Shown piece by piece: positions 7,383-51,780 of a stretch of DNA of 64,000 nt. Numbering within the stretch: the first letter of the stretch is position 1; the number at the start of each line of letters is the position of its first letter. A program made the translations under genes and the position numbers. This DNA comes from Coffea arabica (Eukaryota > Streptophyta > Magnoliopsida > Gentianales > Rubiaceae). The stretch spans positions 33,717,001 through 33,781,000 of the forward strand of contig NC_092324.1 in NCBI RefSeq assembly GCF_036785885.1. Direction: 5' to 3'. The notes beneath the pieces were generated by a model. That model was not told where the DNA came from. It did not search any database and saw only the letters and a list, made by a program, of their open reading frames with translations.

Positions 7383-7804
7383 AATGTATTATTTTTCAGA
7401 GACAAAAAATATATATTATTAAAAGTCACAAATTAATAATACTATCTTTTAGCAAATACAAAATTTAAAAAGTAAAAAATTCTAATGAAACTAAATAATT
7501 TATTTTTAAATTATTAAAATACATATTTGATATGCTTGTGAACTATGTTATTATTCTATATGGAGTGTAATCTATTGTGAATAAAAATATAATAAAAAAG
7601 GAGATAATGAAATACTTACGTGGCATGCGAATTCCACTCACCCATTCTAGTGGATTACATTATGTGGGATTAAACTCCACTCTCTGTGGATAAGGAATTG
7701 TTGAGGCGACACCACAACATCCCATTATCGACAAGTTTTGTATATGTGATATTGTTGGATTCAACAAATCCTGCCTTGCTGATATCCATCCACTTTACTT
7801 TTCC

Positions 7805-8812
7805 ATGGAAGAAACGCCAATATTCCGTCCTTCATCCTCAACCAAAGTTGTAGAGGATATGGATGAATTTCAAGAATTGCTACAAACAATTCCTAAAGTA
7901 AACTGGGATGGCCGGTGGCTATACTACTACAACAATTTTTGGTGTCCAGAAAGAGTGCTTAAATCCACAATTTTCTTTCAAAGAAACTTCAAAGCTAAGG
8001 ATTCCGACATTATCTTAGCATCCATCCCTAAATCAGGCACCACTTGGCTAAAATCACTAAGCTTTACCATCATCAACCGCAAGAAGTGCACAATACCAGA
8101 GAGCCCTCTCCTCATCACCAATCCTCATGATCTTGTAAGATCCATGGAGTATGGTTTATTTCTGAATAGCGAAAATCCTGATCTTGAGGCCTTCTCATGT
8201 CCAAGAATTTTCTCAACACATCTGCCCTACCATGCCCTACCTCAATCGATTTTGAATGCCAAATGTCGCATAATTTATATATGCAGAAACCCTTTGGATC
8301 AGTTCATTTCTCTCCGGCACTTTTTGCTTGAAAATAGTGGTGAAGATCAGCAAAAAGCACTTCCTATTGATGAAGCTTTTGAATTATTTTGCAAAGGTTT
8401 ATACCCTTTTGGTCCCGTTTGGGATCATGCTGAGGGGTACTGGAATGCAAGCCTAAATGATGTTCAAAAGGTGGTGTTTCTCAAGTACGAGGATCTCAAA
8501 ATAGATGCAACTTCTCACGTGAAGATGCTAGCAGAGTTCTTGCGATTTCCTTTTTCTCCAGAGGAAGTTGAAAATGGTGTAGTCGAAGAAATAGTTAAGC
8601 TTTGTAGCTTAGAGAATCTCAAGAATATGGAGGTGAACAAGAATGGTGTTGTTGTTAAATCTCCAACTGCTAAGTTTAAAGCTGGTTCCTATTTCAGAAA
8701 GGGAGAAGTTGGAGATTGGAAAAATTTTCTCAATAATTCCATGGCAGAACGTTACAAGAAGATTATGGAAGAAAAGTTGGGAAAATCTGGTTTGGCATTT
8801 GAACTGTTATGA
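7805..8812 (+). CDS. Plant cytosolic sulfotransferase, copy A
   Basis: A 335-residue intronless reading frame, the usual size and structure for plant soluble sulfotransferases (SOT family). These transfer sulfate from PAPS to hydroxyl groups of small molecules (flavonols, brassinosteroids, desulfo-glucosinolates, hydroxyjasmonate, according to member); the substrate here cannot be told. Seen in order: PAPS 5'-phosphosulfate loop PKSGTTW (75-81) with the catalytic Lys76; STHLPY (137-142) with the presumed catalytic His139; 3'-phosphate motif CRNPLDQFISLRHF (160-173) with Arg161 and Ser169; C-terminal FRKGEVGDWKNF (297-308). No signal peptide. ATG 7805 is the first in frame and sits in a good plant context (ATGG). 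All catalytic motifs are intact. Its paralogue at 47026-47979 differs at about 25 of 335 residues. Confidence 0.93.
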   Translation: MEETPIFRPSSSTKVVEDMDEFQELLQTIPKVNWDGRWLYYYNNFWCPERVLKSTIFFQRNFKAKDSDIILASIPKSGTTWLKSLSFTIINRKKCTIPESPLLITNPHDLVRSMEYGLFLNSENPDLEAFSCPRIFSTHLPYHALPQSILNAKCRIIYICRNPLDQFISLRHFLLENSGEDQQKALPIDEAFELFCKGLYPFGPVWDHAEGYWNASLNDVQKVVFLKYEDLKIDATSHVKMLAEFLRFPFSPEEVENGVVEEIVKLCSLENLKNMEVNKNGVVVKSPTAKFKAGSYFRKGEVGDWKNFLNNSMAERYKKIMEEKLGKSGLAFELL

Positions 8813-9414
8813 ATGTTGAGCATCCCATGGATGTATTATTTTTTACTTCTTTTCTTTTTGGTTCAATGCATTTGGTCAAATCCTCCTTCGAGACCGACAC
8901 ATGAAGCCTTATTTGTGTTTGAATGCCTTGGATCATTTTATTTGTTCTGTCATTTTGTCTTGATGACAAACATAACCATTTCAAGTGTGGAGAATTTTAA
9001 AGTGATTTGAGAAGTATTCTCATCATTGTTCACAGGGTTAATAGCATTAAACTCCGTCAACTTTTTTCTTTCCTTTTGGCAAAACTCCGTATGCAGAGAG
9101 AGGATAACCAACTTTAAATTTTACAAAAATAACTAAAAATGATAACGGGGCACAGACATGATGACCTTCATTGTAAGAGTAAATGAGGGTAAAATATCTC
9201 AAATAAGGTATGTTAAGACCATTTAAAGTTAGAAGACCCTGAATCAATTTCAGAAGGCCTTAGCTGGGATAAAGATCCGACTTGGGACCATAATTCTATT
9301 TATAAATAAATTTTTTATTATCTTTTGAGTTTCTATAGAAATAAAAATTAATTTTAAACCTCTACACATTAAAGGTTCATATCCTTTTAGTTTAATGGCT
9401 ACTTAATCAGTGTT

Positions 9415-9535
9415 GAAGAGGACCCGATTTAGTGGTCAAACTTTTAGTTTCAAGATTTAGAGATTTTGTATTCAAATTCATTTCTCTCCTTCCGGTTTCT
9501 TAAATCTCACTCCTCTCTCGCTAAAAACAATTTAA
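9415..9535 (+). repeat. Weak SINE-like relic
   Basis: GATTTAGTGGTCAAAC followed by TGTATTCAAATTCATTTC and a pyrimidine-rich tail resembles decayed A and B boxes of a tRNA-derived SINE. No flanking duplication was found. The similarity to the 667-800 relic is only in layout. Confidence 0.2.
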
Positions 9536-9808
9536 AAAATATAACAACTACTCAATCAGCTATAAAATAGGCCATCGATCTAATTTCAAACCATTATGAT
9601 ACAAATTTCGTGACTTTGTTTTAAGACAACTCAAATATTGACTTCTATCTACGAATATAAAAAGATTTACTACTTTCTTGTTGTATCATAAATGAAAAGC
9701 AGACTGGGCCGACAGGTTTCCAATAATTTACAAAGGACGGGTCCCAAAATTCAGGTTGAAGCACAATAATTTAGGATGGACCTGTCCCAAAATTCTAGGG
9801 AAGATCGG

Positions 9809-9985
9809 GTTGTTTGGATATCATTTTATTTGTAAAAATATATTAATATATCATTACATCATAAATATATTTTTTAATTAATTTTTTTATCTTTCTAATT
9901 TTTTTTTTACATGCAATGCATCAAAAAAAAATATTACAATATATTTTTTTGAATATTTATTTCAAATAATTTCCTATCCAAACAC
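9809..9985. mobile_element. Small MITE-like inverted-repeat element
   Basis: The left end GTTGTTTGGATATCATTTTA is matched in inverse at the right end (TTTCCTATCCAAACACAT), with a further AT-rich pairing between TTATTTGTAAAAATAT and ATATTTATTTCAAATAA. The GTTTGGAT...ATCCAAAC termini are common in plant MITEs. The interior is almost pure A/T. Exact target duplication was not resolved. Confidence 0.4.
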
Positions 9986-10110
9986 ATTCAATAATTTTGG
10001 ATGTATCTGAAAGCACAATAATTTATGATGAACTGGTCCCACCATCTTGTGGAAGTACAATAATTGTTCCTGGTGGCACGATCGACTCTCACTCTTTGCT
10101 CTTCTCGGTC

Positions 10111-10117
10111 TATATAA
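10111..10117 (+). promoter_or_regulatory. TATA box of the Pin2 gene
   Basis: TATATAA sits 64-70 bases upstream of the ATG at 10181, with a pyrimidine-rich stretch before it. The spacing is right for a plant TATA box giving a short 5' leader of about 35-40 bases. Confidence 0.55.
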
Positions 10118-10180
10118 GAACTTTAGGTTTAAGCCCAGGCGATTTAAAATCATCGGCAAACTTCTGGAAGACAAGGAATC

Positions 10181-10640
10181 ATGGCAATCAACAAGATTGG
10201 TGCATTGGCTATTCTTTTTTGTGGTACGTACAATTTTATTCTTTTGTATATGAGTTAAACCTGTTGGGGCAATTTTAAAATATAAAAAGACAACTATTCA
10301 TCCCATCTATTTAAATACATAAAAAAATCAAGCATCGAGATTTGTTTGGTTTTCACACGATTTGAAATGATTTTGGTACTGAATACCAAAATGAGTTATG
10401 CTTCTGGGAGCAAACGTGGAAGTCATGGCTGTCAGGCCCGGGCCTGTCAGGCCTTGTCCACTGGTTTGCACATTGGTCGCGTACGTGACCTGTGATGGAG
10501 AGAAGAAGTACCGAGGCTGCACCAATTGTTGCTTCGACGAGGGCTGCACACTTCACTTTGAAGATGGAACCTCCCAATATTGCACTTGGCCGCCTAAGCA
10601 ACAATGGGGGCTTGCTAGTATCATGCTCAACCAGCACTAA
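10181..10640 (+). CDS. Potato type II proteinase inhibitor-like protein, single domain (spliced)
   Basis: Proposed exons are 10181-10223 and 10396-10640, giving about 95 residues. The intron starts GTACGT and ends AATGAG, interrupting the signal peptide, which is where Pin2 genes carry their only intron. The spliced N terminus is a hydrophobic signal peptide (MAINKIGALAILFC then MLLGANVEVMA). The mature part has eight cysteines in the Pin2 pattern: CPLVC, VTC, RGCTNCC, DEGC and SQYC, with the CTNCC...GC...DGT signature. Most Pin2 precursors have two or more repeats; this has one. Family role: secreted inhibitor of serine proteases in defence or development. The acceptor site is my inference, and a short antisense frame over exon 2 is a shadow. 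No equivalent exists in copy B of the duplication. Confidence 0.72.
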
Positions 10641-12333
10641 TTAATATGCCCTTCTTAGCTTGTATTTCGGTTCCACTTACACGAGGGTGGTCCGAATATA
10701 ACTATGTACTCTATCAGTGATTCATGGGATAGTGAATCACGTTCAATAAAATGGAAGGATATAAATGAGTACTTTTCTTACAAGAAACAACTTGCTATAC
10801 ATAACCAAATTCATGATACGTCGCTCGGAATGATTAATTACATCTCGAAAAATTGTACGTAATTCTCCCAAAAATACAAGGAAAGGAGAAAGAGAGAGAG
10901 ATAGAGACGAGTGCTTAAAGTGGATCCACTGCTTCTCCAATTGATATAATTCTTACAACATATATTGTAAACTAACATAATTCCAATTGATAATTGAAAT
11001 TTGTCTACTCATAAAAATAAATTAGAGCAAAATTCATGATTAAAATTGGATAAAACTCAACTTAAGAAATCCATGTTGGATAAAAGTTTCAAGAACTTAA
11101 CGATTCTTTCATTTTACTCCATCCACCAACTGCTTGTGCATCATTTGTTCAGTATTAACCAGAGAAACATTATGGAGCCATTAGAGGATAGCCGTCATCG
11201 ATAATGTTCATATATATCTCCATGAGATCAACATTCTAATCTCTTGACCTGGGCACTAATTACTCAAAAATCAACCCCAACTAATGCAGGTCACATTTTT
11301 CTCATTTCCTCCTTGCCACTTTGACCCATTCTCCAAGACAACAAGAAGTATCCCTTCATATTGGATTTTTTTTTTTCGAAAGAAAATCAAATAACATTTT
11401 TGGCACTACTGAGATTTTACTTGATTTTGACTCTAAATTAACATTAGAAGAATATAAGGAAGAAAATTAGCTTTATTCACCATATAGAAGGATTTCATGC
11501 ATAAGTTCTTACTAAATTAATTCCAAAAATGTACTTAGTTAAGAAAAAAAAATCAGGATAACATTTTTTTTTAAATCAGGCTAAATTAAAATTAAGAAGA
11601 TAAACTAATCACATCAAACTCTCCAAACTCCCTAAAAAATTTAATGAAATTTTAACAGACTTCACGACTATTTTCTTACGTTGATATATTTAACGAAGAA
11701 AATGGTTCTTTCACTATGGTCCTCTCAGGAGATACCCTTATCGATACCATATATATGTGGTATAACAATATGGAAGAGTCATTTAAAATCTAGCAAAGCA
11801 TGCAAGAGAGAAATTAATGTTTTCACCTACCCCCAAGAAAAAGAAATTAATGTTGTCTTCTTACGTTGTATTGTAGTACAGCATGATGGTTCAGTTTTTA
11901 TGTATTGACAAGCCTTTAATATTGATATGGATACGTGTCTAACTCAGGGCTCTCACAATGAATTAGTTTGGATAGCAGGATAATTACACAAATTTATCTG
12001 TTTGTGTTACAAATATATTTTTAATCATATTTTTATTTCCTAAATATCATATCAGAAAAGTGCCACAGAGTGTCATTGGCCAAAATGGAATAAAAAAATA
12101 TTTTTGAAAAAATTTATTTCAAATAATCTCCTTTTTTTTGAAAATGATAATAATTATATAATCTGTTTTAGATCAAAAAAATGTATTAACACCACCCTTA
12201 AATTTTTTTCGTTGCTAACGAGGTTTAAATACTCATTCACAAAAATCCCTCTTGGTGGCAACTAGCCAAGCTCAGTGGTTATTCCAGATATCTCCCGTTC
12301 GAACACAATTGCATTGGCCATATTTTCGTTGAA
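10641..12333. other. Intergenic, AT-rich, no gene seen
   Basis: No reading frame with recognisable domains. The frame at 11681-11908 has no family features. The last ~90 bases (12250-12330) contain CTAGCCAAGCTCAGTGG and CCCGTTCGAACAC, tRNA-like A and B boxes of a possible SINE tail; the Helitron inserted directly after it. Confidence 0.5.
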
Positions 12334-12366
12334 CTAGGTGGGTGGTACCGCGCGATGCGCGGTATA
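12334..12366 (-). other. Helitron 3' terminus with hairpin
   Basis: CTAG lies at 12334-12337 on the + strand (also CTAG when read on the minus strand). Eight bases inward comes a perfect hairpin, TACCGCGC (12346-12353), loop GAT, GCGCGGTA (12357-12364). A CTRR terminus with a short GC hairpin 6-12 bases before it is the defining 3' signature of Helitrons and acts as the rolling-circle termination signal. Confidence 0.93.
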
Positions 12367-12783
12367 CTTTTAAGGATTGCCCAAAAATGTGTAGAATAAT
12401 AAGTATGAAATGCTTAGAAGGAATTTTGTCTGAGAAAAACTTAAATGTTTATATACATATTGATTTTTCATTTGTATTGATTATATGTTGATATGTTAGT
12501 TAAGCTAAAATGTTTGCACAAAAAAATTGTTTCAGAAATTGGAAAATATTTTTATCTGAATGTTTGGGGCAATTATGTTTGTTTTAATATTGGGATAATG
12601 GTAGATATTAAATGTAGAGCTGAAAATTTATTTTAAAATAAATAAGTATGCAATGAAGGAGGAATATAAAGCTAAAGACAATAAAATAGTAAATATAGTT
12701 ATTGTTTGTGGGAATTTTGATTTAACACATACAGTAGAAAAGACATTAAAGGCAACAGTAATGTATGCAAAATAAGTAAAAGG

Positions 12784-14851
12784 TTAAGCATTGATGTTAA
12801 GATTGTTTATGTTAATATTTTCAGCATTAAAAACTTCATGGGCTGAGTAGGATGTGATTATTTCATAAGCTGCACGTCTGATGAGTCTGAATTTGGAAGG
12901 AGAGGGCATAATGTAGCACATGAGCAGCTTCCCTTGTAAAGTATGCGCAAGGTATTGAGTAAGATCAACATTCTGTTGTAAAAATAGATGGAAGAAAATT
13001 GTAACAGATTTAAAAAAGAAGAGAGAAAATATTTAGTATAAAAAAGTAGTAGCGATTACCTCTTGTTGTAAATAGTATAGCTCGGCGGTTGAATACTGAA
13101 TTAGTCTCTCTGCTTCAATATCTATAGCAGTAGCACATATAGATCCAGTTGCATCAATGAGTGAAATTGCAATGAGAGCTCTGCAATGAAGAAGTAGGTA
13201 GTTTTGTAGTTAGAAATTGAAAGTGATTAAAGTTGACGATGAAAGGAAGCAAGAAGAGTAAATAATTATGTTTACCTAGGAACCAAATCCATGTTAGAGT
13301 GGCAATGTTGACATGTAACAGGCAAATTGCTTGCAAGTTTGCTTGGAAAATAACAAAGGGGACAAGCTATATAAGCTAACTTTTGAGGTATGTAATCTAG
13401 CTCCACAATGCCTTGAATCCAGGCAGTCTTTGGTTTCTTTGACAAAGAAAAGGTACAAAAGAATAGCTAGCGTTAAAAAAAAGGCAAAAGAGAAGTGAAT
13501 GTAAGGAATATTGTATGTAAATGTAAATTTTGAATTAGGAATTTTACTTGCTGAAGAAGAGTAGCAATATGAGTGATTCGATTATCGTTTACAGGAGGAA
13601 GAAGAATGCGTGGGTTAGTGTAACTGCTCTCATCAATCATTCGTCTCAGCGCATGGGCATGGGCATGATGCCTATGATAAAACTGAAAAAGGTAAGTTGT
13701 GATATAATAAGAGCGATAATAATGCACAAGGTGGTTAAAACTCTTACCACGTTTTTAAATGCATCGTTTGTTGAGCGATCGGAGATATCAAAATCAGCGA
13801 GGAAGATTTAGTTGAAAGACTCAAATCTGATACGATTGGTAAGAAGAGGGTAAAAATTTTAAAGTTGATAGAGGAAATAATTTTTTGGAATCATAAAAAA
13901 TTAGAAGATGCTTTAAATAATAGAGGTGAAGCATGTGATTACAATGATTCGTTGTAGCTTTGACTCTGATGGCAATGATAACTGGAAAAGGGTCTTCTGC
14001 TGCTGCAATAGTAGGGCCATAATTTTCTTCAAGCTCACCGCGTAAAGTTAGTATCAAAGGTTTCATGCTGGGTAATGAATAGTAATAGAATCAATTGCTG
14101 GAAATGCGCACGATTTTGAAAAATGGAAGGAGAAATTAGATTAGTAATGAAATGTGTTACTCTTCATTAGCTATGACATAGTCTCGAACTACACATGGGG
14201 CTCCTTCAATAGGGATAATTTTGTTAGGTAGAGCATGAAGCACGCCTGCCATGACAGCTTAGGAAAATGAAAGAAGTAAAAGTGTTAAGGTCATAAAAAA
14301 TTATGCAGCAATTAAAATATGGGGAAAATAAGCAAAGCATGATGATTAACTTACTTATTAACTGTTCGGTATCAGCAATGGCGTCTAGCAGAGTAAATGG
14401 ATATAATTGAAAATGTGAAGGAAGAGAGGGATAATCGAGTTGGTCAATTTCACGAATTGATGTAGCTTCAGTAGCAATCCAGTAAAATGGATATTCGGTA
14501 GGAGCAGAACCATCATGTAGGTGGTGAACAATAGCTCTAGAAATATAGTATTTTTTAAATGGTAGCAATAATCCAGCAAGTCGATGAATCATGTTCCCGA
14601 TAACATGCATATTAACTGTTACACCCTGATACTAACAATTGTTAAAAGGTATCATGACATAAGTAAATAGTCATGAGATCAAAAGGAAATTAAGTATTCG
14701 TTACCTGTGAATCGGCAAGCAGAAAGGTTTGAAAGTTTTGCTGGAGGTGCAAATTATTTTTTATACAAGCAACTTCTATAACTTGGAGAGCTACCGTCCA
14801 GTTTGATGAATACGGATGAACAGCAGATAGAGGGATTATTGCAGGTTCCAT
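12784..14851 (-). CDS. RPA1-like (DUF223/OB-fold) protein, second Helitron copy
   Basis: A multi-exon minus-strand gene. The ATG at 14851 starts MEPAIIPLSAVHPYSSNW, a typical plant RPA70-like N terminus. Later segments give a DBD-A-like OB fold (QTFLLADSQ, MHVIGNMIHRL, YPFYWIATEATSIREI), a second OB fold (LILTLRGELEENY, PFPVIIAIRVKAT) and a C-terminal zinc-ribbon OB fold (YIACPLCYFPSKL ... VTCQHCHSNMDLVPR, then ISLIDATGSICATAI). The stop is near 12784. The family binds single-stranded DNA; in plant Helitrons it is thought to aid rolling-circle replication. It is well diverged from the RPA-like gene at 18256-20569. Exon boundaries were not all resolved and small lesions cannot be excluded. Confidence 0.75.
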
Positions 14852-16025
14852 TGTAAGATAGTCTATAATAGAAAAGGAAAAAATTAAATGGGTGAAGTGT
14901 AATCTACATGAGCTAAAAGGGTCGGAGAAAGGATATAATTGGAAGATAAGGAACGCATGAAGATGAGGTGCAAGGATATGCATTTTGATAGGTATCAGTT
15001 TAACAGTCATAAAAAAATTATAAGTAAGTGGAATAACCTGTTGTGAGCTAAAATCGAGTGCGTTAAAAAGAAGAACGTGATCGGAAGATGGGATATGCTT
15101 AAATGAATGGAACTGTATTGATAAAAGCAGCAAGAGAAAAGCTGGAAGAAATGAAGCCGGACTTTGGAGTTAGCAGAGAGCAGAGAGGAGAGAATTTATT
15201 CGAGGAAGGATAGCACTATATGGGGAAAAGATTTGAAAAGCAGATCGGATGAAGTAATGTAAAAACGTGCTTAGTAAGTAAATGCATACCTGATGGTGAG
15301 CAACAAGGAAGCTTATAAGTTTAAGTGTAAGGAAAGAAGTTAAGATGGTAATAAGGGGAAATGAAGATGAAGGGAAGGAAGATGTTGTTGCTAAAAGTAG
15401 AATTAGAGGAAGGAAAGATGTGTATATTGTTGTTTTGTTGTGATACGTATTGGTGGAATGCATAAAAAGGTAAAATGGTTATGAATTGAGCACAGATGGA
15501 TAAATATAAGTTTAAAACATAAAACTATTGAATCTAATAAGATCGATATGCATGGTGTCATTTTTATCCAAATGTAAAGTTGGAAGCTGTAGTAAGGACT
15601 ATTATTGCTGATAAAGTGATCAGAATCTGAAAGGTTCACGTGCATTCATTGTTAGGTAGGGAAGAGTACAAAATGTTCATAAAAGGAATATGTTCAGAGA
15701 TTCTCTGTTGATTTTGTCTGCAGCAATTTCTTTCAAAAGATTGGGATATCTATTGTTTTGGAGTCTTTGAATATCGGTATTTATAAATTTTAAATTTGGT
15801 ATCATATTACTTAGAATAATTTTTATGTATTTAAAGTAAAATAGAAAAGGATCACTTAAGCATTTGGAGTAACCAAACAGGATAATTAACTCTGCATTTA
15901 TGTAATAAGACGGGATAAAAGCGAACAATATTATTGGAAGGGAAAAGTTTCTAGTACATTTAAAGGAAAGAGTAAAAAAGCTGCAGAGGCATGATCACAT
16001 AATGTTACAGAGCTTAATTACAGCT
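14852..16025. other. Helitron interior, no gene recognised
   Basis: AT-rich spacer between the B3-like gene and the second RPA-like gene. Minus-strand frames at 15170-15463, 15403-15645 and 15677-15928 are Leu/Ile/Ser-rich and show no family motif; they probably represent untranslated or spacer sequence. Confidence 0.5.
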
Positions 16026-17083
16026 TTAAGCATCTGAACAAATGCTGAAAGTGTAATACCATGGAAATAGCTTTTCAACTCCATTATAGTCAAATACTAA
16101 AACAGCAAATGTAGTCTGTGATTCAGGAATGAACACAAGAACATCGTTATGCTGTAATTGATGCTGAAGAATGAAGTTTCTCCAATTTCCTTTCAATTGC
16201 TTCCCTTTGATACCAATTCTTGTAATGTTATGGCCAGTCTTGATAAGTACGGTGGGAGTTCTTTCGCTATTCAAGAAGGGATCAACGAATCTTGGGAGTT
16301 TCTATGAATTATTAAGGAAAATTAGAGTGAAAAACTGAACATAGAAAAATAGGTTAAAGAAAATGGATGAATATGGATATAATAGTAACTCACCATTGAA
16401 TTCGGCGTTGCTGAATGAAAAGTTTGATAAAAACAATGCGAATCAGTTAGGTTTTGACAGAAATCTGGTTCTAACGATGAAGTCACGGCGTGATGATTAA
16501 CTGATAAGGATGTGGTATCTGAGGTCATTAAATAAATAATGTATTAGAAATAATGAAAACAGGAATCAGTATAGAAAATGAGTTAAAAGATATACAGGCC
16601 TTGTGTATAGTCAGCGTTATTCTCCAAAATATTTGGTAGCGGAATTGTCCAGGATAAGTAAACTTGTTGCTGCAGTTCAGAGAAATGAATAACATCGAAA
16701 ATAAGATTTCCAGCATAACGAACCATCAACAGATCATGAGTGTTAACGATATTGTCATGGCAATATTTATTCCATCCTTCTTCAAAGCAGCCATTGGCAA
16801 TTGTGAGAGGCCATTTTTGCATTCCATATCTGAGTATGATTGTGTTGTTTTGATGCTGATCAAGTAACAGGCGAAACTGAGCAGGTAAAATTTGAAATTG
16901 TTTGATGAATCAAATGAAATTAAGCAGATTAATATAAAAATATTAGATATGGATAGTTTGAATGTCTTTTGTTTTATAAGGAAACAAAAGGTGTACCTGG
17001 CCTCTATAACAACATTTGAGAAGAAAACAGCAAGGGTTTAAGCTGCTGTTTGGCTGTTGAGAACTTGATGGAGAAGGAAACAT
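16026..17083 (-). CDS. Protein with two B3-like DNA-binding domains (REM-type) in the Helitron
   Basis: The minus-strand ATG is at 17083 (MFPSPSSSQQPNSS). Exon 1 runs to 16997; a canonical GT-AG intron (16877-16996, 120 bp) follows; exon 2 restarts FRLLLDQHQNN. Two B3-like units are visible. The first contains MQKWPLTIANGCFEEGWNKY, then HDLLMVRYAGNLIFDVIHF. The second contains TRIGIKGKQLKGNWRNFIL, then HNDVLVFIPESQTTFAVLVF and KLFPWY. The spacing W...GW..F...L..D.L.F......F.V.IF is that of plant B3 domains, nearest to the REM group. B3 proteins are plant-specific transcription factors that bind the DNA major groove. It shares strand with RepHel and the RPA genes. It could be captured host sequence or a resident Helitron gene. 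The exon structure between the two domains is not fully resolved. Confidence 0.62.
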
Positions 17084-18255
17084 ATTTTGTGCTATTAAAG
17101 GGATAGAAGAAGAAGAAGATAACAGGAGAAAAATATGGCATGGTGCTATTAATATATATATCAGAAAGGCTGTTAAACTGTCAAATGAAAAAAAAAATTA
17201 GTAAGCAGAAAAAATGGTTGCTTGCAGAAAGTTGCAGCTTTTTGTTTTTAACTGTGTGCTATTAAATTTTTTGTAATCATGTATTGAATAAAGGACTGAC
17301 TATATATATAGTTAATGATAAGAAAAGCAATTATTTATTAGCATTGTTAACGTTTGCGATGATTTTTTTTATCAGTATAAGCACATGAAGTGGAGCAGGA
17401 CAGCATTAACCATTGAGGCACTTTTTTTATTGAGAAGAAGATTACGAAGGACATTGAATAAAATTGCATGTAAATTAGCATGCATTTGCTGCATATATAT
17501 TATAAGGAGATTAAAGTCAAATACCCAATGAGTAACATTATTAAGTATTTGTCCAGAGAAATAAAGATACTTGTTGAGCACTTGCTTGCAAAGTAGTAAT
17601 TTTTAGCAGTATCAGCTTGGTTGGATGGTTAATAATGATGAGTTTGTTGTAATTTGGTTCTAAAATTTGGCAGTACTACATTGTTTTTATAATTTATTTT
17701 TTTTCCTAACTTTATAATTTATTTAGTTTTGAGATATAGTTTTTCTTTATTGTTATAGAGGTAGGTACAATTGAACTGCCACTGTCTGAGATATTTTAAA
17801 TACCTGCAGCTTTACTTTTACGAGAAGTTTGCTTAAAACTTGCTTGTCCTCTCCTCTGTAATTCATTTAAGCTTTGGAAGAAGGCTTTGTGTAATGCAGT
17901 ATGTCATATTGCTTTTGTTTACTTTAATATTTCGATTCCTGCAACCTAGTAGATAATAGTGGTGAGTAAATAAGTTGGTGTCATAAGTAATAGAAGTTGT
18001 AATCTGAACAAAAAAAGGAAGCATTAAAAAATAACAGCACAATAATTAGTCTTACATAGAGTTAATAGTACATGAAGTTGACTGTTGAGGACAGTAGATA
18101 TGTCAAAAGAAGCTGGTTCATTAATACGTACAGACAAAACAAGAGTGTTCATTCAAAAACTAACGACTCTTGTAACAAACTTAGCAAAATGTAGCAGTGC
18201 AAATGGCTTGTAAGGTGTATCTATCTTATGAAGACAAAAAGTGAATAGCTCTGAA
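17084..18255. other. Helitron interior, spacer
   Basis: AT-rich sequence between the first RPA-like gene and the B3-like gene. It probably holds the 3' UTR of the former and the promoter of the latter. No domain-bearing frame was seen on either strand. Confidence 0.5.
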
Positions 18256-20569
18256 TTAGTTTAGTTTTGATTTCTTGGCAGAGCTGCTGGCTTCATCAGG
18301 GGAGTTGTCGTCGTTCAAGTTCTCTATTTCATCAAACTTTTCAGAAAGTCGTTTGCGAATCTTTGGAGGAGAAGTATTTTCTTCTGCAACAAATAAATTT
18401 TTCATTTTATATAATTTATTTCAGGGAAAGCATGTTTGTGGATTAGAAGTTCAAAGTATGTGTCTATTTACCTGGATCAATCAATTGCAGCGTTGGAGGC
18501 TGGTCATTAAGCAACGGTAAATGATTTTTTGGTTCCTTTGTTACCTCAATTGAACTGGCATCATCATGAGCTTCATAGTAATATATCACTGTATAACGTT
18601 GCCTAGCATCTGCTAGCTGTGCTTGCACAGGTTTGATATGAATGAGGAAAATCTTTGCTTTGAGCTCTTCATGAACAAGGTCAAGAGGGAGTTCAACATT
18701 CTGATAATAAGGAGAAAAAAAAACATTAGCAGCTTTATAACAGGCCTGTCAACAAGTGTTATGGGACAAAATAAAACCTCATTAAAATGCTGCATTGCTT
18801 CAAGAGAGCTGAACGTTAGAAGTTTTTCTGCTAGTTCACCAAATATGGAAGCTGGTATGGTTCCACTGCTATCAACCAAATCAACATCAAAGCGACATCT
18901 GGAAATATAATCAATATAGAGGGAATTAGTAATCGGCAAAATTATTGTTATGCAAAATCCAAAAAGAATCACACAACAAGGACTTATGAATGATCCACAG
19001 AACAAGGACTTATGAATGATCACCTTGATAGAGCTGGTTGCTTCTCCTTGCACGAGTTGCAGGTAAATTCAACCTGATAATCTGCTGCTGTGGCTCGATA
19101 GCAATTCTTGCAACTCATATACCAGTATTTTTGGAATATGTGTTCAAAGTAGAAACGTGCTCTCACCCAAGTCGTCTGCAATATAAACAAATACAAGGGA
19201 ACAAATGTAAACAGGGCGATAGTAAAGTGTAAAGAGAAATGGGGAAAATTGTTTTAACACCTTCTGTGATGGGCTAACGTTACAAATCAAGGTAGCTTTT
19301 TGATCAGTTCTGAGAGAAATTGTAGGATTATACTTCATGTAATCTCTTTTAGCAAGAACATCTGCAATTATTTGAGAATTTCTGAGCGCCTGCACAAGGC
19401 AAAAATGCAGAAAAGATGTAAGAAGTGAAAGATTATCCGTAGTTGCTATTTTGTGAGATAGAAACAGGGCATTGGAAGTGCAACATACCAGTTCTTTAGC
19501 TCTCTTGCTTCCTGTATAGGCGGATCAACAAGTATGACAGAATCAAACCAAGTACCTAATGCAACTCCTATAGAAAGAATAAACATTAATGCCATGCGTC
19601 ATGATTCTGTGAAAGGTATATATAAGAGTGTGCAGAACAAAAATATAAAAATATTAAAGGAAAAAGTACCATTGTAGTTATTCACTTTTATTCTCCGTGC
19701 AATAATGACAGGATAGCTGTGAAGGTTAGACAGTAATTGTTGTCCTTCATTAGCGAGAAAGTCATCCCTTAAAGATAGCAATACTGTGTGTGATCTGTAA
19801 TCATTATTAATATAAGTAATAGACAGTAAATAACTTAATTCAGATTTAGGATTAAGATAAGAAATAAAATACCCACTCTTCGTCAAGAAGAACAAACTTT
19901 TGAACACTTGATTCTCTTGAGTTTCTGTTTAATGTCTTCTTGTCCAGTGCAGCAATCACAACTCCTATCACATCTGTAAAAACAGAACCAGCATAATGGA
20001 AAAGGAGGTAATAATATTGTAAGCACAGCAATATTAATTCACTGAGAGACGTACCAACTGATTTATTCTTGTCATCCATGTGATGCACTAAATCAGTAAA
20101 CTTTGTATAGTTGAATTTCACAGGCATGATTTCATTATCAGCATCATTTATTTCTTCAATGACAGTTTTAGTGCTGATCACCCATTGGATAGTGAGCTCA
20201 GCTGTCTGGAATTTTGCTGGGATAGGCTTCACTTCAGCATTTGTGATCTTGTACTTTTTATAAACACGTAAGAGTGGACTCATTTTAGGAATATCAGCAT
20301 TGAAGATTATTGCTTCAACTTTTGATCCCTGAGGCACACAATTGGTAGCATTACAATTAGCTAAAAAATAGAAAAATCTTGTAAAACAAGTGCATAGAAA
20401 AAAGCGGGTACAAAGGTCTGTTAACCTCTGCATCATAAAAGATAAATTTTTGTTTTTTTGTCGGCATTCCCTTCGAGTCAGTAATCTGTTGCTTTTCCTG
20501 AACAGTGATGAGGCAACTCCAATTCTTCATGAAAGGGACAATGTCTTGGATAGGCAGCAAATTAGTCAT
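18256..20569 (-). CDS. RPA1-like (replication protein A 70 kDa) protein, first Helitron copy
   Basis: The minus-strand ATG at 20569 lies 132 bases beyond the RepHel stop. Three clean GT-AG introns are readable: 20329-20425 (97 bp), 19974-20054 (81 bp) and 19795-19876 (82 bp). The joined product has an N-terminal OB fold (PFMKNWSCLITVQEKQQ, KQKFIFYDAEG, KVEAIIFNADIPKM), a DBD-B-like fold (DVIGVVIAAL, VLLSLRDDFLANEGQQL, HSYPVIIARRIKVNNYNG) and a C-terminal DBD-C-like fold with a zinc ribbon (YWYMSCKNCYRAT ... FTCNSCKEKQPALSR) and FDVDLVDSSGTIPASIF. It ends in a charged, Ser-rich tail with a Lys-rich NLS-like end. It should bind single-stranded DNA. One junction near 19490 does not splice in frame cleanly and may carry a lesion. 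Confidence 0.8.
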
Positions 20570-20700
20570 TCTGCATCAAGATAAAAACATAGATAAATGA
20601 ATGCAAATAAATAAGACAAGTGTAACAGTATATTGGAGTAAAGAAAGAAAAATTTCTATATGCACCTGATTCCAATGTATAGTTAAAGTAGACAGGTTCT

Positions 20701-23700
20701 TTATTGCTGAGTTAAATCAAAAATCTCATTAAAGACAATATTCCTAGTTTTGCAGTCAGTCTTTCTCTCATCAAATGTTCCAGGAACGAGAAGAACCTTA
20801 AGCTCAACAGCAGTTCTAGCTCTAGAGAGCGCGACATACAGCTGTCCGTGCGAGAAAACGGGTTCACGCAAGTAAAGACCGACATAATCCAGAGTTTGTC
20901 CTTGCGACTTATTAATGGTTAACGCAAAACAAAGTCGGACAGGAAATTGAGTTCTTATGAACGGAATTCCATTCCTTTCATTGTCAGATGTTTGAAGAGG
21001 TATCTTTGGGATGAAGACTCTTTTTCCTGCATGACTGCCAAACACAATCTCTGCAGAAATAATATTCAAACTTAGCTCTCTACATATTAATCTTGTGCCA
21101 TTACACAATCCTTCATTAGGATTTAAATTCCTTAATAGCATAATAGGACAGTTTTCTTTTAGCAGCAACTTATGAGGAGGAACTCCTTTTGGGTTCTGTG
21201 AATTCAGAAAATCTTCATAGTCTCCTTGGTGTCGCTGCTCAACAGTCCGATCTGAACTTATATAAACTTGAAGATTTCCAGGAAATCTATTTATTAATAG
21301 CTCGTTGAGCTCATCAACTGAGCTATTTTTTGGAGCAAGGATGCATCTATTTATCATGGTATAAGGATCTTTAGAATACAGGTGCAAATCTGGAAAAACA
21401 CTTTGAAGCAACCTGTTTAAAATTATAAATAGCCATAATCAATGAAAGGTAGAGATAAAAAAAGGGATCAAATAGATAAAGTATAACCGTATGCAAGCTG
21501 CTAACCTGTTTAAAGATTGTTCCTTATCATAATAAGGAATAACTATATCAGGCGGTAAAGTGATTTCGCCATTTTCATCTAGAAGCTCTTTTCCCTCGCC
21601 TATTCTTAGTAAGAACTGAGAGAAAGCAGGATCTAACATGGCTCTCATATTCTGTGTGAGTCTCAGCTTATGTAATTTAGACCAGAGAATAGAATTAGGA
21701 AAGCTTGATTCTATGAGGACCTGTTTTGTTGCTCGCTCAATAACTGGCAAGGTTTGGTGAAAATCTCCACCAAAAACGACAACCTTCCCTCCAAAAGACA
21801 AATCAGAATCCATTATGTCTCTAAGCAAGTCGTCAAATGCTTCAATCGTCTCTCGCTTAGCCATTGGCGCTTCATCCCAAAGGATAAGCTTACACTCAAA
21901 AAGCAATTTGGCAACACTGCTTTGTTTGCTGAGTTGACAGGTCTTATTCTTCGAAAAGTCCAATGGTATCTTAAATCTTGAGTGCGCCGTTCTCCCTCCA
22001 GGAAGAATCGATGCTGCAATGCCAGAAGTGGCAACAGCAATGGCAATGTAACCCTGTGATCTTAATGTAGCAAGTAGTGATCGGTATAAGAATGTTTTAC
22101 CAGTGCCTCCTGGGCCATCAATAAAAAAAGCCTGGCCCTCACCAGAAAAACATGCTGCAAGAATCATGTCATAAGCATGTTTCTGTTCACAGTTTAACTT
22201 GACAGACATTAGCAAATCGTCTGGAGTAACATCTAAACCTCTTTCATTTTCAATCAAGAATCAAAACCAAGTGAAACTAATTGGTAATCAGTAATTCGCT
22301 TTCCCATTTGCTCCAATGACCTATTAATGTCCTGTAGAACCCTTGTCCTGATCTGTGAACCAGTAAGGACAGAAAATGAGCATTGTCGTTGGTAATCTAC
22401 AGACAGTTCATGTTGGAATTTTTCCCACAGTAGCTGAGGATTTACAGGAGAACAATGGACAAGCAGAGTAGCAAATAGTAATCTTAAGGAAGACGGCATC
22501 TGAAAGGTCACAGCTTCTTGAAGCGTATCCTCTATGTAAGTATCGGATTGCAAGAGTCCTAATGCTAAAGCAGCTTCTCTAAAGGAATTCAGCTTTTGAT
22601 TAGCAACCGTCAAAATATGATCAAAGGAAGTCGGGCCATGAACATGATTCAGAAGTAGTCTAAGGTAGTATCTTTCTCCATCCGCTGGACTAACAGTGAC
22701 CATTCTACCTATCACTTTTCGACGCTTTCTTTCAGTCCATTTCTTATATTTAGGAGACCAAACAAAGTATTGAGGGAATTCCCTGTAAAGACATTTAAGA
22801 TTCTGTGCAACCACATGCATTTTGTTCATATAAAAAAATTCAGTTAACATGGTTTTTGAAAAATCAACTTTGCTCAATAATTGCAGCAGGTCTGAATTTT
22901 TGTCAAATGAAACAAACTGCTGGTCCGGGAGGTGGATCTGAAGAGTATAGACTGCTAGACTGATTTCGCTCAAGCGAAATTCAAAGATACGCCAAAACGC
23001 CTCAGGGGGCGAAATCCATCTACCTTGCTGAAATTCTCTTATCTCATCAGTGTCATCAGGAGTACGGTACGAAACTATCCTAAAACTGACTGAATCATGT
23101 CCTTTGAAAACATACTTATACATGTACTTCACCAATTTAACAGTCGAGCAAATTTCTACATTAATGTGACAGTCAAATGTAGCTAACAGATAGGGACTAT
23201 AAGAGACAACCCATCTGTTATCAAGAGTATGCCTTCGGACCTTTATTTTTGTACCATCATCTCTTCTTCTATATTGCGGATAACTATCTTCAGCATGACT
23301 CGTTTGGGCACAAAAGGTCTTAGGATAGTGATATCTACAATGACCATCTTTCATACAAGGACAAGTTCTATCCAGATCGCCACAAGGACCATGAATCATG
23401 TGCTTTACAACAAGGGAATATAGATGAGGATGCTTAGAACGATCAGGTATTTCAGCACAAACTATTCTATCATATGACTCCGGATTTAGGAGTTTGTATT
23501 CAGGCTTCAAAATTAATAGTAGATGAGCATGGGGGAAGCCACATTTTTGGAACTCTATCACATAGACATACGCTGCAACTTCACCAAAAATTTGCTTGTT
23601 CAAAATTTCTGATTTAAGCAATTCAAATTTGGCCCTAAAGACTCTAGCCAGAAGATCCGGTCTATCCTGAGGCTTTTCGTGGTACTTTAAATTATCCTGA

Positions 23701-26303
23701 ATTTCCTTCCATGCTGGGTTGCAGGTCATAGTAAGAAAGATGTCTGGTTTTCCATATTTTTGCACAAGAGACATTGCATCAAGATATCGCCGTCTCATGT
23801 CCCTTGGTCCACCTATAAAAGAAGCTGGTAATATCGTTCGACGGCCAACTTTAGAAGCACTGGTCTGGCCTATACAAATACTGTCCAGGACTCCTTGGAG
23901 GACCTCAGAACGAATGTTGTTTTGGCGATTTCTATGAAAATCAAGCCTAGACGTCTCAATCTTAACATAACCATCTACTGCATACTGCTGCAATAATCTA
24001 AGCGAGTGCAACAACATTGAATCATCACTGTCCCTCATCTGAAATCTGTAACAATAGTATTCTCTAGCTGACACCGTGTTTTCCTCATTTTTTGCACAAT
24101 CAGCAGCTAGAGAAAAAGCACGAGCAACCATTTACTTTGATGATTTTTTATAATGTAAAAAATAGTGGTTAAATTCAATTGTTTAGAAGTAGCAAGAAAT
24201 AACTTGCCTCTTTGTTCCCGTTCCATTAAGGCTGATGCAGAATTAACTGAAGATGGATGAATATCGATGTCTTCCTCACAATAATCATCTTTTCTCTTTC
24301 TTTTTTGGGCTCTTTTAATCCCAGGGTGCCATCCGCATTCGCCACGTGGAAAAAGAAGAGGGTATTGTAATGGATCATAGCAGCCATAGTAATGTTTAAT
24401 TTTGTAGTTGCTATTTGAATGCGCATAAACCTGAATATGAGCTCCCGTATGACCGGTTTCATCTTGATTTTCAGTCCATATCGCTGCAACTTGGGAGGCA
24501 GAAGGCAGATTATAAACCCGTTGATCAAGGGTGGGATAACAATTAAGCACAATGCTAAGGTTGTTAATGTTTGGAACATGCCTTAAATTTTTGAAGAATT
24601 TAGCATAAGGATTGTCGCTAAGAATGCGCATAAGGAGTCTTAAAGTGCTTTCTCGCAACTTATCAGATGCAGCAATCCTCTTTGCTAATTCTTCATCAGT
24701 GTCAAAAAAGTAGAGCTGAATCCCAGATGCTCTATCATCCGACTGAAGAAGGCCATTAAGAAAATGATAAACCTCGTGTTTTTTGTTAGTTCAGGATCAT
24801 ATTTAGCAGCAAATGATGTGAAGCCTAAGTTATTGTTGTAAGTGCGAGCATTATTTCTAAAATGAAAGCTTTCCTCATCATTACCAATAAATAAGTGCTT
24901 CAAATCATAAGGCATAGGAGGAGTAACAAGAGAAATTTCTCCTCCAGAGCAACAAAAAGTAGGAGGTTCCAAATGGAATCTCTTGGCTCCGCAATGGTCA
25001 CACGAAGGAGCATCAGGCAGAACCAAAGATACATTAGGAATCTCGTTCACGATTGAGAGATTTGGCTGACCGCGCCTGCGCTTTCTTCCTATAATTTTTT
25101 GTATGTGGTTGACAAACAGGTTGAGTTAAAGCTCTGTATAACGAGGCAAGAACGGAGCCTAAAGATGGCGGCAGCTAAACGAGAAACAATACTGAACCTG
25201 CATTTTCTGTTCTCACGGCGGAAACACTACCACGCTTCTTGCTATACTCAGAAAGGCTAGGCAATGGATCAAGGGAATCGTTCCTTTTTTTTCTCCTTGC
25301 CTGGCGAGAACAATTTGCTGCAAGTTGATTAAACTCTCTCCTTGGGAAAGAAGAGGGTTCTGTGGATAATAAGAGCGAACAAGATGAGCACCACAGCTGA
25401 GCAGGGTTGTGTATGCGAAGAGTTAATACGCAGTAAAAAATGTTGAGGAGGTGAAAGAGCAAGCAATTAGCCTGAAAGTTATAGCTTTAAAAGAACTGAA
25501 TAGGGAGCGTTTAAGAAAGGGATTGCACGAAAGGAAAGCCAAATATCTGGAAGCATTTGGTAATGCACGATTTTATTTTCACCAACAGGTTAATATTTTG
25601 AAACTGGAATTTTCTATTGTGGAGAGTACAGGTAGGAAAATGCGCAGATGCTAATTAAGTAAGGTTATAATTGGTCAGAGTCTGATTCTGAACAGGAAAG
25701 GTTTGGAAGGTTCTAAGTGTTTTGAGAAGGGCTAGGGAGAAGGCATTTATTGAAAAGAAGTATAGGAGCGTGCAAACAAAAGAGAGCTAATTTACAGGAA
25801 TACAGAGTACTTAGCAATAAATAGGAAGGCAGAGAAGCAGGAATGATATGAAAGAGGAAAGGCCAAGCCAAGTACAACAATAAACTAATTAATAAAAAAG
25901 CAATACCTTTATTAAGGGATATAGCATCACTGGAAGTTGTTTTTTTCCTAGAAGAAGAAGATGACGAAGCATGATCATCGAAGAAATTAGGTACAGCAGA
26001 AGAAATGCAGGGCAGCTGTCGATTATCTGTAATAACACTATCGACTGGAACCAAGCATTCTCCATTTTGTAGTGCATTAGAAAGCACATCAGCTTGAGCA
26101 TGAGTGTCAGAAGGTTTATCATGACTATATGAGAAACAAACAGAAGGTTCCACAGCAGTAGGCAGAATCTTTTGAACACGAGACAGGAAAAGGCTCTGTT
26201 TTTTCTTCGCAGCTCTAGCTTCTCGTAGAGAGCGCAGAAATTCTGCTTTCTTGGCAGGCGGCATTTCTGCGTATTTTTTTCGGCGCAAGGCATTTTTATC
26301 CAT
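20701..26303 (-). pseudogene. Helitron RepHel (HUH endonuclease plus PIF1-type helicase), frameshifted
   Basis: Readable minus-strand exons: 26303-25907, 25359-25198, 25088-24208, 24106-21506 and 21412-20701. Introns 25360-25906, 25089-25197 and 21413-21505 are GT-AG; 24107-24207 is GC-AG (GCAAGT). The Rep part has the HUH motif FPHAHLLLIL and the twin-tyrosine motif KYMYKYVFKG; upstream lies a CxxC pair (CDHCGAKRF). The helicase has Walker A GPGGTGKT, the DEAP box, motif III FGGDFHQTLPV, LTQNMRA and the C-terminal LTINKSQGQTLDYVG ... YVALSRA. Two apparent one-base losses break the frame: in an A run near 24785 and in a T run near 22256, between Rep and helicase. The product would initiate rolling-circle transposition in the nucleus; this copy is probably defective unless these are sequencing errors. 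Confidence 0.88.
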
Positions 26304-27686
26304 CTAATTCCAGCTAAAAAGGGTAGCAGCAACCCGAAGGTATTAAGTAAGCATGCGAAGATGAAATTTAACAGCAAGGAACAAGCCAATAAGAGTCGTT
26401 TAACGCAATAACACACACCTGATTAATGCAAAAGCTAAGAGAAAGAATGGACAACCAAAGGCAAGCAGTAGTAATGAGATAATAAACGCTGCATGGATAA
26501 CCAAGGAAGCCACAAAGCGGGAAACTTGCAACAGGGGGAAAAGGGAAAAAGCATGCATGATTAATTAATTAATATAACAAAACACACCAGCGCATACTAA
26601 AAGTAAACAAGCTAACAGCGCAGGTACATGCTAAGGAAAAGTCAAGGGAGAAAAACGAGAAGGGAAGCAACACTACCTGAGCCAAACACAGAAGCAGGAA
26701 CACCTCAGCGAATATAAAACAGCAACAACAAGGCGGACAGAATTTCTTGCCGTCAAAAAAAAAAAAGGAGAAACAAACGAAAAGCAAATGTGACATAAGG
26801 CAGAGTACAGTGGAGAGGAGCAAATAATTTCGAAAAATGCAGTCAAAGAATAAAACAAGGATAGAGATACTAACCTGTACTCAAAAAAGGAGGAGCTGAC
26901 AGGAGAATCTGAAGATGGAAAAAGCTACAGAAGAACAAGATATTTCAAAAGTCATGTACAGCAGAGGATCTTGTAAGCAAGGAAAAGAAAAAGATTCCAA
27001 AAAGGAATAGGTTCCTAGTAAAAAAGAAGGAGCAAGGCAAAAAAAGAGATAAACCATGAATTTATTTAGAACAAAGCAAACGGAAGAGAACAACGAAAAA
27101 TTCATAGCATGCAGTAAACCATGCCTACCAGGTGTTAGCCGAAAGTTGCAGAGATGCAAGCAAGCTTCCAAACAGGAAGAAGTCTAGCCAATCGTTTACG
27201 GAAGAGGAAGAGAACAACAAGCAAAAGTAAAACAAACAACACTAACATAATGCAGGACTACCAAAAGCCAACGGACAACTGACGCTGAGAGGACGAAGGT
27301 TGTACGGGAATTTTTTCAGCAGGCTCAGCAACAGCGAAAAGGAAAAAGAGAAGAAAGAGGAGAAAGTCATTCTTTGTCAGCATTTGACACCGTTTAGAAA
27401 GGCAATTTTACACAAACAGGCCATTCAAAGCAAGAGGGCCTCTAATGCAGAATCTGCAATATTAGCATAATACTCAGGGTAAAATTGTCATTTCAGTTTC
27501 CATGACCACCTAACCGCTGTCATTCAAGATCAAGATCAAGAAGACATATCACACCTGCTACCATCTGTCATAACCACTACTCTCAGAACTCTCTTCTTCA
27601 TATCACCAATCTTATACTAAACTTCCAGTGTCAGTTCTAGTCGTATATAGTCCTTTCTCATATTATATTATATTATAATAATAAGA
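26304..27686. other. Helitron 5' region
   Basis: This stretch lies upstream of RepHel on the minus strand and presumably carries its promoter and leader. It is A/G-rich on the + strand with several small frames but no family motifs. The 5' terminus of the Helitron should lie here or slightly beyond. Confidence 0.5.
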
Positions 27687-28600
27687 AACCAAAATGGGAA
27701 CGGAACCAGAATACAACACAAGGAAGGAAAAAAACAACTTATAATTGGAGAAGAGAACATAAAGTTGGACGAACACTCTCCAACCAATCATGTTTGGCCA
27801 CATCACCAACAGTACACACTCTTGAGGCATGGCATTCACCCTTTTATACATATGCTAATGAGAGGACTGCTCCTCTGGCGAATGCCTTTATGCGCAAAAG
27901 ATAAAGCACATTATATATCTTTCACATCTGATGTGATGTGGTGGCGGAACCCACTTAATAACATGGCAATGTGATTTTAAACTCATGCAAAGCTGTCGGC
28001 AACAAATCCGGACAAGGGGCACAAAGGTGCAATCGTTTGTGCCGGTTATATTCATTTTTCACTGTACATAATTTTTATTGCACACGATATAATTTACTTT
28101 GCACATAATGTAATTCTACAACATTTTTTTGTGGACCCCACACATAACGTGAAAATCGAGTTACATGATATAATCTGAGACATAATGTAATTCTACAACA
28201 TTTTTTTGTAGACCCCACACATAACATGAAAATCGAGTTACATGATATAATCTGAGCCGCACAATTTTTTGAGGCCATATCGTGGCCGTGAACTTTCATG
28301 TTCCTGCCCCATTTCCAACAAATCCATCATTTTGTGGGAAAGGTTCGAACCAAAGGACCTGACTTCCATGGAGAATTGAGTCTAACTCCACACAAATGGA
28401 AAATAAACTTGAGAAGAACACGTGTGTTGCTGACATCAAGGTATTTATAGTATAGAAAGGATTGAAATCACATCTAGACAAATAGCTGTTGAAAGCAGAG
28501 GTAATAACCGGTGCAAACGGTCAAAAGAAAAGGCGCTTGTCTTGATAGACAACCACAGAAAATTTTTTTTGAAGTTTTCTTTTTTTTAAAGGTTTTTTTG
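27687..28600. other. Intergenic spacer with a short tandem repeat
   Basis: No gene is recognised. It holds a two-unit 77-bp tandem repeat (28104-28257, listed separately) and T-rich tracts up to the start of similarity with copy B near 28600. Confidence 0.5.
28104..28257 (+). repeat. 77-bp tandem repeat, two units
   Basis: Units 28104-28180 and 28181-28257 both start CATAATGTAATTCTACAACA and both contain ACCCCACACATAAC and CGAGTTACATGATATAATCTGAG. They differ at only a few positions. No function suggested. Confidence 0.85.
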
Positions 28601-29935
28601 GTATGCTAGGTGCGGTCCTTCTGTATTTTCCTTTCTTTCTTTTTATTGCTTTTATCTCCAACCATTTCGAGCACATGTTCTTTGCAGCCACTGAAGCAGT
28701 GTCGGTTGCGTGTCCCCCCTTTTCTGTGAAATTACAGTCTTTATCCTTGAGGCAGGTTGCCGTCAGCCTTCAACTCTGCCACTTGCTTCTCTTCATCTAT
28801 CTATATTTCAAGTCTTTCATAATTCATCCATCTCGTCTTACCTTTATTTTCTTTCGTCCTTTTTTTTCTTGTCGGGGAGTACTCAATTTTTTCGCCAGAT
28901 TCTGGTGAAGAAGTAGGAAGACAGAAATTTTGGTTATTACCACCAAAGGAGACCAAAGAAATTTTGGTCAGGCAGGTTGCATTAGGTTTGCAGTTTTCTT
29001 CGTAAATATTTTTGGATTGCAGCTTTTTACTAAAATAATTTTTTGCGTTCTTTTATAAATATATTTTTTATTCATCTTTTAATTTCACATATATCAAATC
29101 ACTACAATATTTTTTTTTTAACAAAAACTTCTAAAAATAATAATTCAAACGAGCTCTTAATTATAATAATAAAGCACCCTAGTAGTTTCGTGCGGTTATT
29201 TTTCTTCAATGTATAAGCCTTCCTACGGCCAGCAAAGAACAATAAACCGGTTTAAACCTTGCTTTAACAGGAGGGCCTACTCGGAAAATCTGAGCAATCA
29301 AAGTATGCTCATCACTCTTCGTTTGAGAGGCATATATCTTATCAAAGTATGCTTGTTCTAGAATAAGTAATCATTGCACTATATCTTATCTTATCTTATC
29401 TTACCTACTATCTTATCTTATGTTTGTTCTAGAACAATCTTATCTTATGTTTGTTCTAGAACAAGTAATCATCGCACTATATCTTATCTTATCTTATCTT
29501 ACCTATATCTTATCTTACCTACTATAAAGTGTGAGTTTGCAACTGCGGTTCCAATTGAATTGATCGATTTCATTCCCATATTCTTGTTCTGATTGGTTGT
29601 TGTCATTATCTTGGTCTAGTCGTGAATTTTGTGAAATTGTTTAGCATGTTGGTCATTTGGATATGTGATGGTAGGGTTTTTTTGGTATTTGAACTGTGCT
29701 GGTAATTGCATGGGTTGTGTTTGATGCCAAGTGGCAGTTGTAATATTGGGTTTTCATGATTTGTGCAGTGCAAATTGCCCTTTCTGTTTTTTTTCCCCTT
29801 TGTCAATAGTCCTCACCACCTAAACAAGTGTTTTTTTTTTCTTTATCTCATTTATTCTCAACTCTCTCCACTTTCAGTAGTTGCAACATCCTCTTCTTTC
29901 TATCAATCTTTTGTAAATTTTGGGGCGCCGAATGC
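28600..29935 (+). repeat. Segmental duplication copy A, distal block
   Basis: Collinear with 53695-55353. Shared sequence includes TTCTTTCTTTTTATTGCTTT, the ATTACCACCAAAGG segment, the TCTTA-repeat tract, TGGTCATTTGGATATGTGAT and TCTCAACTCTCTCCACT. In copy B it follows the sulfotransferase flank almost directly. In copy A it is separated from that flank by about 19 kb holding the Pin2 gene and the Helitron. No protein-coding gene is recognised in it. Confidence 0.85.
29382..29525 (+). repeat. TCTTA pentanucleotide array
   Basis: Several runs of TATCTTATCTTATCTTA are interspersed with two copies of TGTTTGTTCTAGAACAA. The equivalent tract in copy B (about 54281-54315) is shorter, so this array expanded in A or contracted in B. 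Confidence 0.85.
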
Positions 29936-51722: not shown

Positions 51723-51780
51723 GATCTTTACTCCAAGCCGATTGAGCTTCGTCTCAAGGAGACCAAGCTCTGATACCAAT

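Follow-up and report, generated by a model that had tools for sequence, protein, structure and literature searches.

The window analyzed here, a 64,000-nucleotide stretch of the Coffea arabica genome (assembly GCF_036785885.1, contig NC_092324.1, positions 33,717,001 to 33,781,000 of the forward strand), carries a decayed member of a plant Helitron lineage, the genes of which are RepHel, an RPA70-like gene (RPA_A), a gene with two B3 domains, and a second RPA70-like gene (RPA_B), in that order on the minus strand. The other copies, the fixed gene order, the ratios of nonsynonymous to synonymous substitutions (dN/dS), the gene trees, and the distance to host domains together indicate that the B3 gene is probably old, coinherited, and selected. 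We regard it with great confidence as a resident, selected component of this lineage, and with good but somewhat lower confidence as one that also encodes a DNA-binding protein, as its domains predict. The features of the element, in window coordinates, are the following:

12334..27858, minus strand: Helitron, 15,525 bp, between host A (27859) and host T (12333)
27841..27858, minus strand: 5' terminus TTAGCATATGTATAAAAG, placed by comparison of copies
27841-27848, minus strand: TATA-like box, inside the first 18 bases of the Helitron
20701..26303, minus strand: RepHel (HUH Rep plus PIF1-type helicase), several exons
18256..20569, minus strand: RPA_A, 10 exons, with REPA_OB_2 and Rep_fac-A_C domains
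17083-16997, 16891-16600, 16518-16394, and 16301-16026, minus strand: B3 gene, 4 exons, placed by comparison with other copies
16600..16891, minus strand: B3 domain 1, PF02362 match
16026..16301, minus strand: B3 domain 2, PF02362 match
12784..14851, minus strand: RPA_B, 9 exons, 434 amino acids, with a Rep_fac-A_C domain
12346..12364, minus strand: 3' hairpin TACCGCGC-ATC-GCGCGGTA, from a fold scan and comparison of copies
12334..12337, minus strand: 3'-terminal CTAG

The gene content, order, and common strand proposed in a first-pass annotation of this DNA are borne out, with Pfam support for each of the four genes, all of which have introns, as had also been proposed. RepHel matches Helitron_like_N (E = 3.4e-58), PIF1 (1.4e-69), and Pif1_2B (6.8e-16), and its Rep open reading frame (ORF) holds the motifs PHAHLL and KYMYKYVFKG. 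A GC donor splice site was inferred at 24207 in the RepHel of the window copy. RPA_A matches REPA_OB_2 (7.8e-11) and Rep_fac-A_C (2.8e-9), whereas RPA_B matches Rep_fac-A_C just above the cutoff (1.3e-6; 28.7 bits versus 28.5). By place and domains, that is, RPA70-type OB domains adjoining RepHel, they conform to the plant Helitron RPA (PHRPA) genes. The two are clearly different from each other, as claimed at first pass, with 27 to 29% identity, and eight of their introns lie at matching aligned positions; they are thus old paralogues rather than fragments. An odd intron 5 splice common to both RPA genes was considered and rejected: the RPA_B acceptor is normal, and that of RPA_A carries a small lesion, one base having been lost relative to other copies.

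The exon plan of the B3 gene comes from a nine-copy alignment and consists of a short first exon, B3 domain 1, a linker, and B3 domain 2, with the introns placed alike in all nine close copies. All nine genes have a GC donor (at 16599 in the window; GCCTGT, with one GCTTGT), whereas the acceptor of intron 1 is AA in the window copy versus AG in the eight others. B3 domain 1 does not begin with the peptide FIKQFQ, a reading that was rejected because this stretch is intron sequence in other copies; the query used for the joined-protein profile test and for the B3 genome search included it. The joined two-domain protein exceeds the cutoff of the B3 profile (33.5 bits versus 30.1) in two stretches.

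The searches for further copies covered a single genome (1.198 Gb). A search with the 3' end of the element listed 18 matches at 17 places, the window's included, and 10 of the 16 others were fetched. Both B3 domains are present in all 10, though damaged in some, so that the first-pass proposal of a B3 gene shared by other family members stands. B3 domains without stops occur in other copies. One copy, C12, aligns poorly at the DNA level in the B3 region, yet both of its domains score well. Another, C21 (L027-L028), has a RepHel and an RPA_A close to those of the window and a strongly diverged B3 gene and RPA_B, which may reflect recombination or unequal evolutionary rates. All 17 of the more distant copies likewise have both domains, a few of them with internal stops; in frames of at least 60 residues, the linker is visible in 15 of these and the first exon in 7.

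Genome-wide searches with each gene reveal the same arrangement. For B3, the best 150 of 915 candidates were scored, giving 228 matches; the 150 of these that were listed represent 98 loci, 52 of them with two or more exon matches. The RPA_A list comes from the best 150 of 1,459 candidates and holds 148 loci, two rows that are further exons having been omitted; for RepHel, the best 70 of 1,396 candidates were scored. RPA_A lies upstream of B3, on the same strand and within 20 kb, at 81 of the 98 listed B3 loci, 68 of them at 2 to 5 kb, and at none of the 98 does it lie on the opposite strand or downstream within 20 kb. This agrees with the view, put forward at first pass, of a resident gene set with B3 in the same place. 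Downstream of the 70 listed RepHel matches, a listed B3 gene is found on the same strand in 40 (4,960 to 11,117 bp; median, 5.2 kb), and in none of the 70 is one found downstream on the opposite strand or upstream on the same strand. The chance of a listed B3 match in a random one-strand stretch of 20 kb is about 0.0008. For RPA_B, the best 97 of 1,246 candidates gave 150 matches, 67 of which (about one exon per locus, with loci known only by a late exon omitted) were used for counting; an RPA_B exon lies downstream of B3 at 33 of the 98 listed loci, 30 of them at 879 to 1,721 bp, and none on the opposite strand.

The purifying selection for which the first-pass annotation had asked is found across copies. 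By the Nei-Gojobori count, a simple method applied here to pairs that are not independent, the median dN/dS of B3 is 0.33 over all 36 close pairs and 0.30 over the 30 of these with dS >0.08. In a set of 17 divergent and two close copies, it is 0.22, over the 33 of 171 pairs with dS <1. Shifting the frame of the B3 codons as a control gave 1.24 (16 pairs) and 0.77 (24 pairs), and the dN of B3 is lower than intron divergence in all 36 pairs. For the other genes, the values are 0.17 for Rep (20 pairs), 0.20 for the helicase (19 pairs), 0.19 for RPA_A (32 pairs), and 0.41 for RPA_B (43 pairs). Very close B3 pairs often, though not always, have a higher dN/dS, up to 1.20, as they should if insertion is followed by decay.

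Trees of Rep and B3 built for 18 loci have 12 of 15 splits in common, whereas label shuffles gave at most 3 in 2,000 trials. All 10 strongly supported B3 splits are present in the Rep tree, and the distances are correlated (r = 0.86; none of 10,000 permutations as high). This agreement points to a single acquisition of the B3 gene, at least among the 18 loci, followed by descent with RepHel.

Host relatives of the B3 domains are distant. The search for them scored the best 150 of 663 candidates, with 150 matches listed, and 20 host domains were fetched and compared. The best matches reach about 34% identity over 52 to 68 residues and, in one copy, 39% over 49, all of them to the same host domain, L094 on C16. 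The near-identity to a host REM gene that would have marked a one-off capture according to the first-pass annotation is thus not found among the 20 sampled domains, and the best identity of about 34 to 39% excludes a recent capture as far as these host domains are concerned. Neither of the traits of a captured fragment, near-identity to the host and scattered presence among copies, is seen. Domain 1 groups with L094 (support, 0.82), domain 2 is without clear placement, and a REM-like origin of the Helitron B3 gene is suggested by these sequence comparisons. No relatives were found in viral and prokaryote collections.

The ends of the element were fixed by comparison of copies. The 3' end given at first pass, 12334, is exact, with the hairpin followed by CTAG, while the 5' end given there, 27686, falls 172 bases short of the real one at 27858. 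Copies C3, C18, and C21 match the window past 27686 to about 27858, with no clear match farther out, and C17 begins at the equivalent of 27851. Genome matches to window positions 27740 to 27862 (best 40 of 80 candidates) all start at most 10 bases from the outer end. Another candidate 5' end, TCTATACTATAAATAC at 28456, was ruled out by alignment with other copies, as was 27686. At the 3' end, the hairpin has a folding z-score of -4.0, and the hairpin plus CTAG at 12334 is the only such end found by a scan of both strands of the window. The 3' end is common to the 10 other fetched copies (CTAG in 10 of 11 and CAAG in one), and the base after it is T in 11 of 11.

At the 5' end, 19 of 25 copies are preceded by A, 4 by T, and 2 by G. 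The two with G (L065 and L066, 121-base stretches) are related elements whose first base directly follows the hairpin and CTAG of a different Helitron, which indicates that an old 3' end can be the target of a new copy. The element has the HUH/Y2 Rep and PIF1-type helicase, the GC-rich hairpin before a CTRR end, and the A/T insertion of the Helitron superfamily. However, it begins with TT in 23 of 25 copies, the window copy included (TC in one and CT in one), rather than with the TC of the strict TC...CTRR definition, and it is therefore placed in the superfamily and not in the strict TC class.

A conserved block extends inward from the 5' terminus and is strongly kept in 25 copies. In the mechanism that we propose, with roles taken from known families, RepHel would nick and unwind the DNA, and the two RPA proteins would coat the single strand. 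The B3 protein would bind the non-coding DNA of its own element by sequence, most likely activating, or keeping unsilenced, a promoter at the extreme 5' end and, less likely, marking an end for RepHel. For a predicted two-domain DNA-binding protein that stays with the replicase, in an element with an apparent promoter at its extreme 5' end, the simplest role would be to act on that end, as an activator or antisilencer or as a helper of RepHel. The promoter or antisilencing role is put forward tentatively, as a possibility somewhat short of an even chance. More tentative still is the full proposal that a large plant Helitron lineage encodes a B3 transcription factor of its own, derived by a single acquisition from a REM-like gene; by binding the promoter at the terminus, this factor would override silencing or set the timing in the germ line, and these Helitrons would carry a regulator in addition to a replicase.

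The strongest alternative for the role, although we consider it unlikely, is that the B3 protein assists RepHel by binding the ends of the element, as end-binding accessory proteins do in other DNA transposons, and does not regulate transcription or silencing. The B3 gene travels with RepHel and two genes for single-strand-binding proteins, and the strong conservation of the 5' block in 25 copies could reflect binding of such a helper. However, the TATA-like box and the start region lie within the same block, so a promoter may account for its conservation.

Several observations weigh against a resident, selected B3 gene with DNA-binding domains. The gene is broken in several close copies (C10, C17, C9, and C4), and the window copy, with lesions in RepHel, RPA_A, and B3, could hardly make any of these three proteins; its RepHel has two frame-shifting deletions, of about 31 and 25 bases relative to other copies, near 24,775 and 22,254, while no lesion was found in its RPA_B. 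No listed B3 match accompanies 30 of the 70 listed RepHel matches or 67 of the 148 listed RPA_A loci, and thus, by the matches listed, some Helitrons of this genome may lack B3. B3 (0.30) and RPA_B (0.41) are less constrained than Rep (0.17) and RPA_A (0.19), and two of the 14 strong Rep splits are missing from the B3 tree. The single B3 domains of the window copy fall under the profile cutoff (E = 0.013 and 0.00045), as does the first sequence in each of the two domain alignments. The structure model of domain 2 has a mean predicted local distance difference test (pLDDT) score of 72 and no clear fold match (no E-value <0.2 and no B3 chain among the matches listed), that of domain 1 scores 44, and comparison of the domain profiles with solved structures gave nothing significant.

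The broken B3 genes of those four close copies would fit an old passenger, captured once in the distant past and persisting since some copies serve the plant, in which B3 proteins are regulators, and not the element. We consider this improbable: constraint across many transposed lineages and a B3 tree that tracks that of Rep are what a gene serving the element would show. More improbable still is that the two domains belong to an unrelated barrel that resembles B3 by chance, in line with the weak single-domain scores and the uninformative fold searches, because PF02362 is the sole family matched by all 9 members of both domain alignments (best E, about 2e-6) and, in a 20-sequence set, a host B3 domain is matched by the profiles of the Helitron domains with E values of 5e-16 and 5e-8. 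As for a one-off capture, in which a host REM gene was picked up and B3 is a passenger of a single copy or small subfamily, Helitrons often take up gene fragments, according to the available text of two papers (PMC6431247, PMC3288121), but the 98 listed loci in fixed order, the best host identity of about 34 to 39% among 20 sampled domains, the dN/dS of 0.2 to 0.3, and the agreement of the B3 and Rep trees leave it scarcely any probability.

The resident gene set is accompanied by a compositional skew. On the coding strand, the half of the Helitron with B3 and RPA_B (12334-18250) has a C-over-G skew of 0.31 over 5.9 kb, which weakens toward the 3' end; outside 12334-28456, the skew is at most 0.17 in any 5.9-kb stretch of the window. 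The C/G ratio of the same half is 1.78 to 2.12 in six other copies, and it is 1.38 to 1.74 at 17 divergent B3 loci versus 0.81 to 0.97 at 17 Rep loci. Long residence in one orientation, the sole explanation that we offer, may be responsible.

Elsewhere in the window, sulfotransferase genes form a tandem duplication (7694-8812 and 46870-47979). The duplicate blocks are distinguished by the insertion 9278-28603, present in one, and by a 5-kb element, present in the other. One paralogue lacks 9278-28603 altogether, which shows an insertion, though one bigger than the Helitron; this gap was tried as a marker of the Helitron ends and did not fix them. At 49103-52695, two 915-bp repeats, 99.2% identical, enclose a copia-type gag and probably represent a recent long terminal repeat (LTR) element. 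A copia-type polyprotein ORF of 1,326 codons, flanked by repeats that are 96% identical, is located at 55353-64000, and an open frame of 545 codons with a DUF4371 domain is located at 31975-33612.

Helitrons shuffle plant genes, and to our knowledge little is established about the control of their own expression. A conserved gene inside a Helitron for a DNA-binding protein would offer a direct handle on that control. Surveys of plant B3 families may also count transposon genes as host regulators; one such survey, in olive, reports 200 B3 genes in its available text (PMC9943606).

No description of a Helitron B3 gene was found in a literature search at the level of listings, mostly without subscription papers or repeat databases, and an earlier notice is possible; literature on Helitron accessory genes, searched at the same level, likewise gave no B3 case. 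The gene resembles the REM-type B3 factors of plants in having B3 domains, two in tandem, and differs from them in its identity of at best about 34 to 39% to the 20 sampled domains and in its location in a transposon between two RPA genes. A model for its predicted role is provided by VANC of the Arabidopsis VANDAL elements and by TnpA of En/Spm. These DNA-binding proteins, encoded by transposons, recognize the non-coding DNA of their own families as the place of their action, although these belong to other transposon classes and are unrelated proteins. In maize, ZmhelB1 and ZmhelB2 (12 to 13 kb) likewise carry Rep, helicase, and RPA1-like domains in one orientation, but there the RPA domain is within the RepHel ORF, the other content of ZmhelB2 consists of gene fragments, and the available text describes no B3 gene (PMC3288121). 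The 11.5-kb Helitron at DFR-B of Ipomoea tricolor also has RepHel and RPA genes, which have decayed through a frameshift and a nonsense mutation, with no B3 gene mentioned in the available text (PMC3288121, PMC6591975). Rice Helitrons, including the sister family Mothra, are 8 to 15.5 kb long and carry RepHel with an adjacent PHRPA gene, and Mothra elements end in a hairpin and then CTAG and insert between A and T (PMC4683698). The Coffea element has the same adjoining RepHel and RPA genes, hairpin-CTAG end, and A/T insertion, and it differs from the rice Helitrons, as far as these are described in the available text, in having a second RPA gene and a B3 gene and in beginning, in most copies, with TT where the rice elements begin with TC (PMC4683698).

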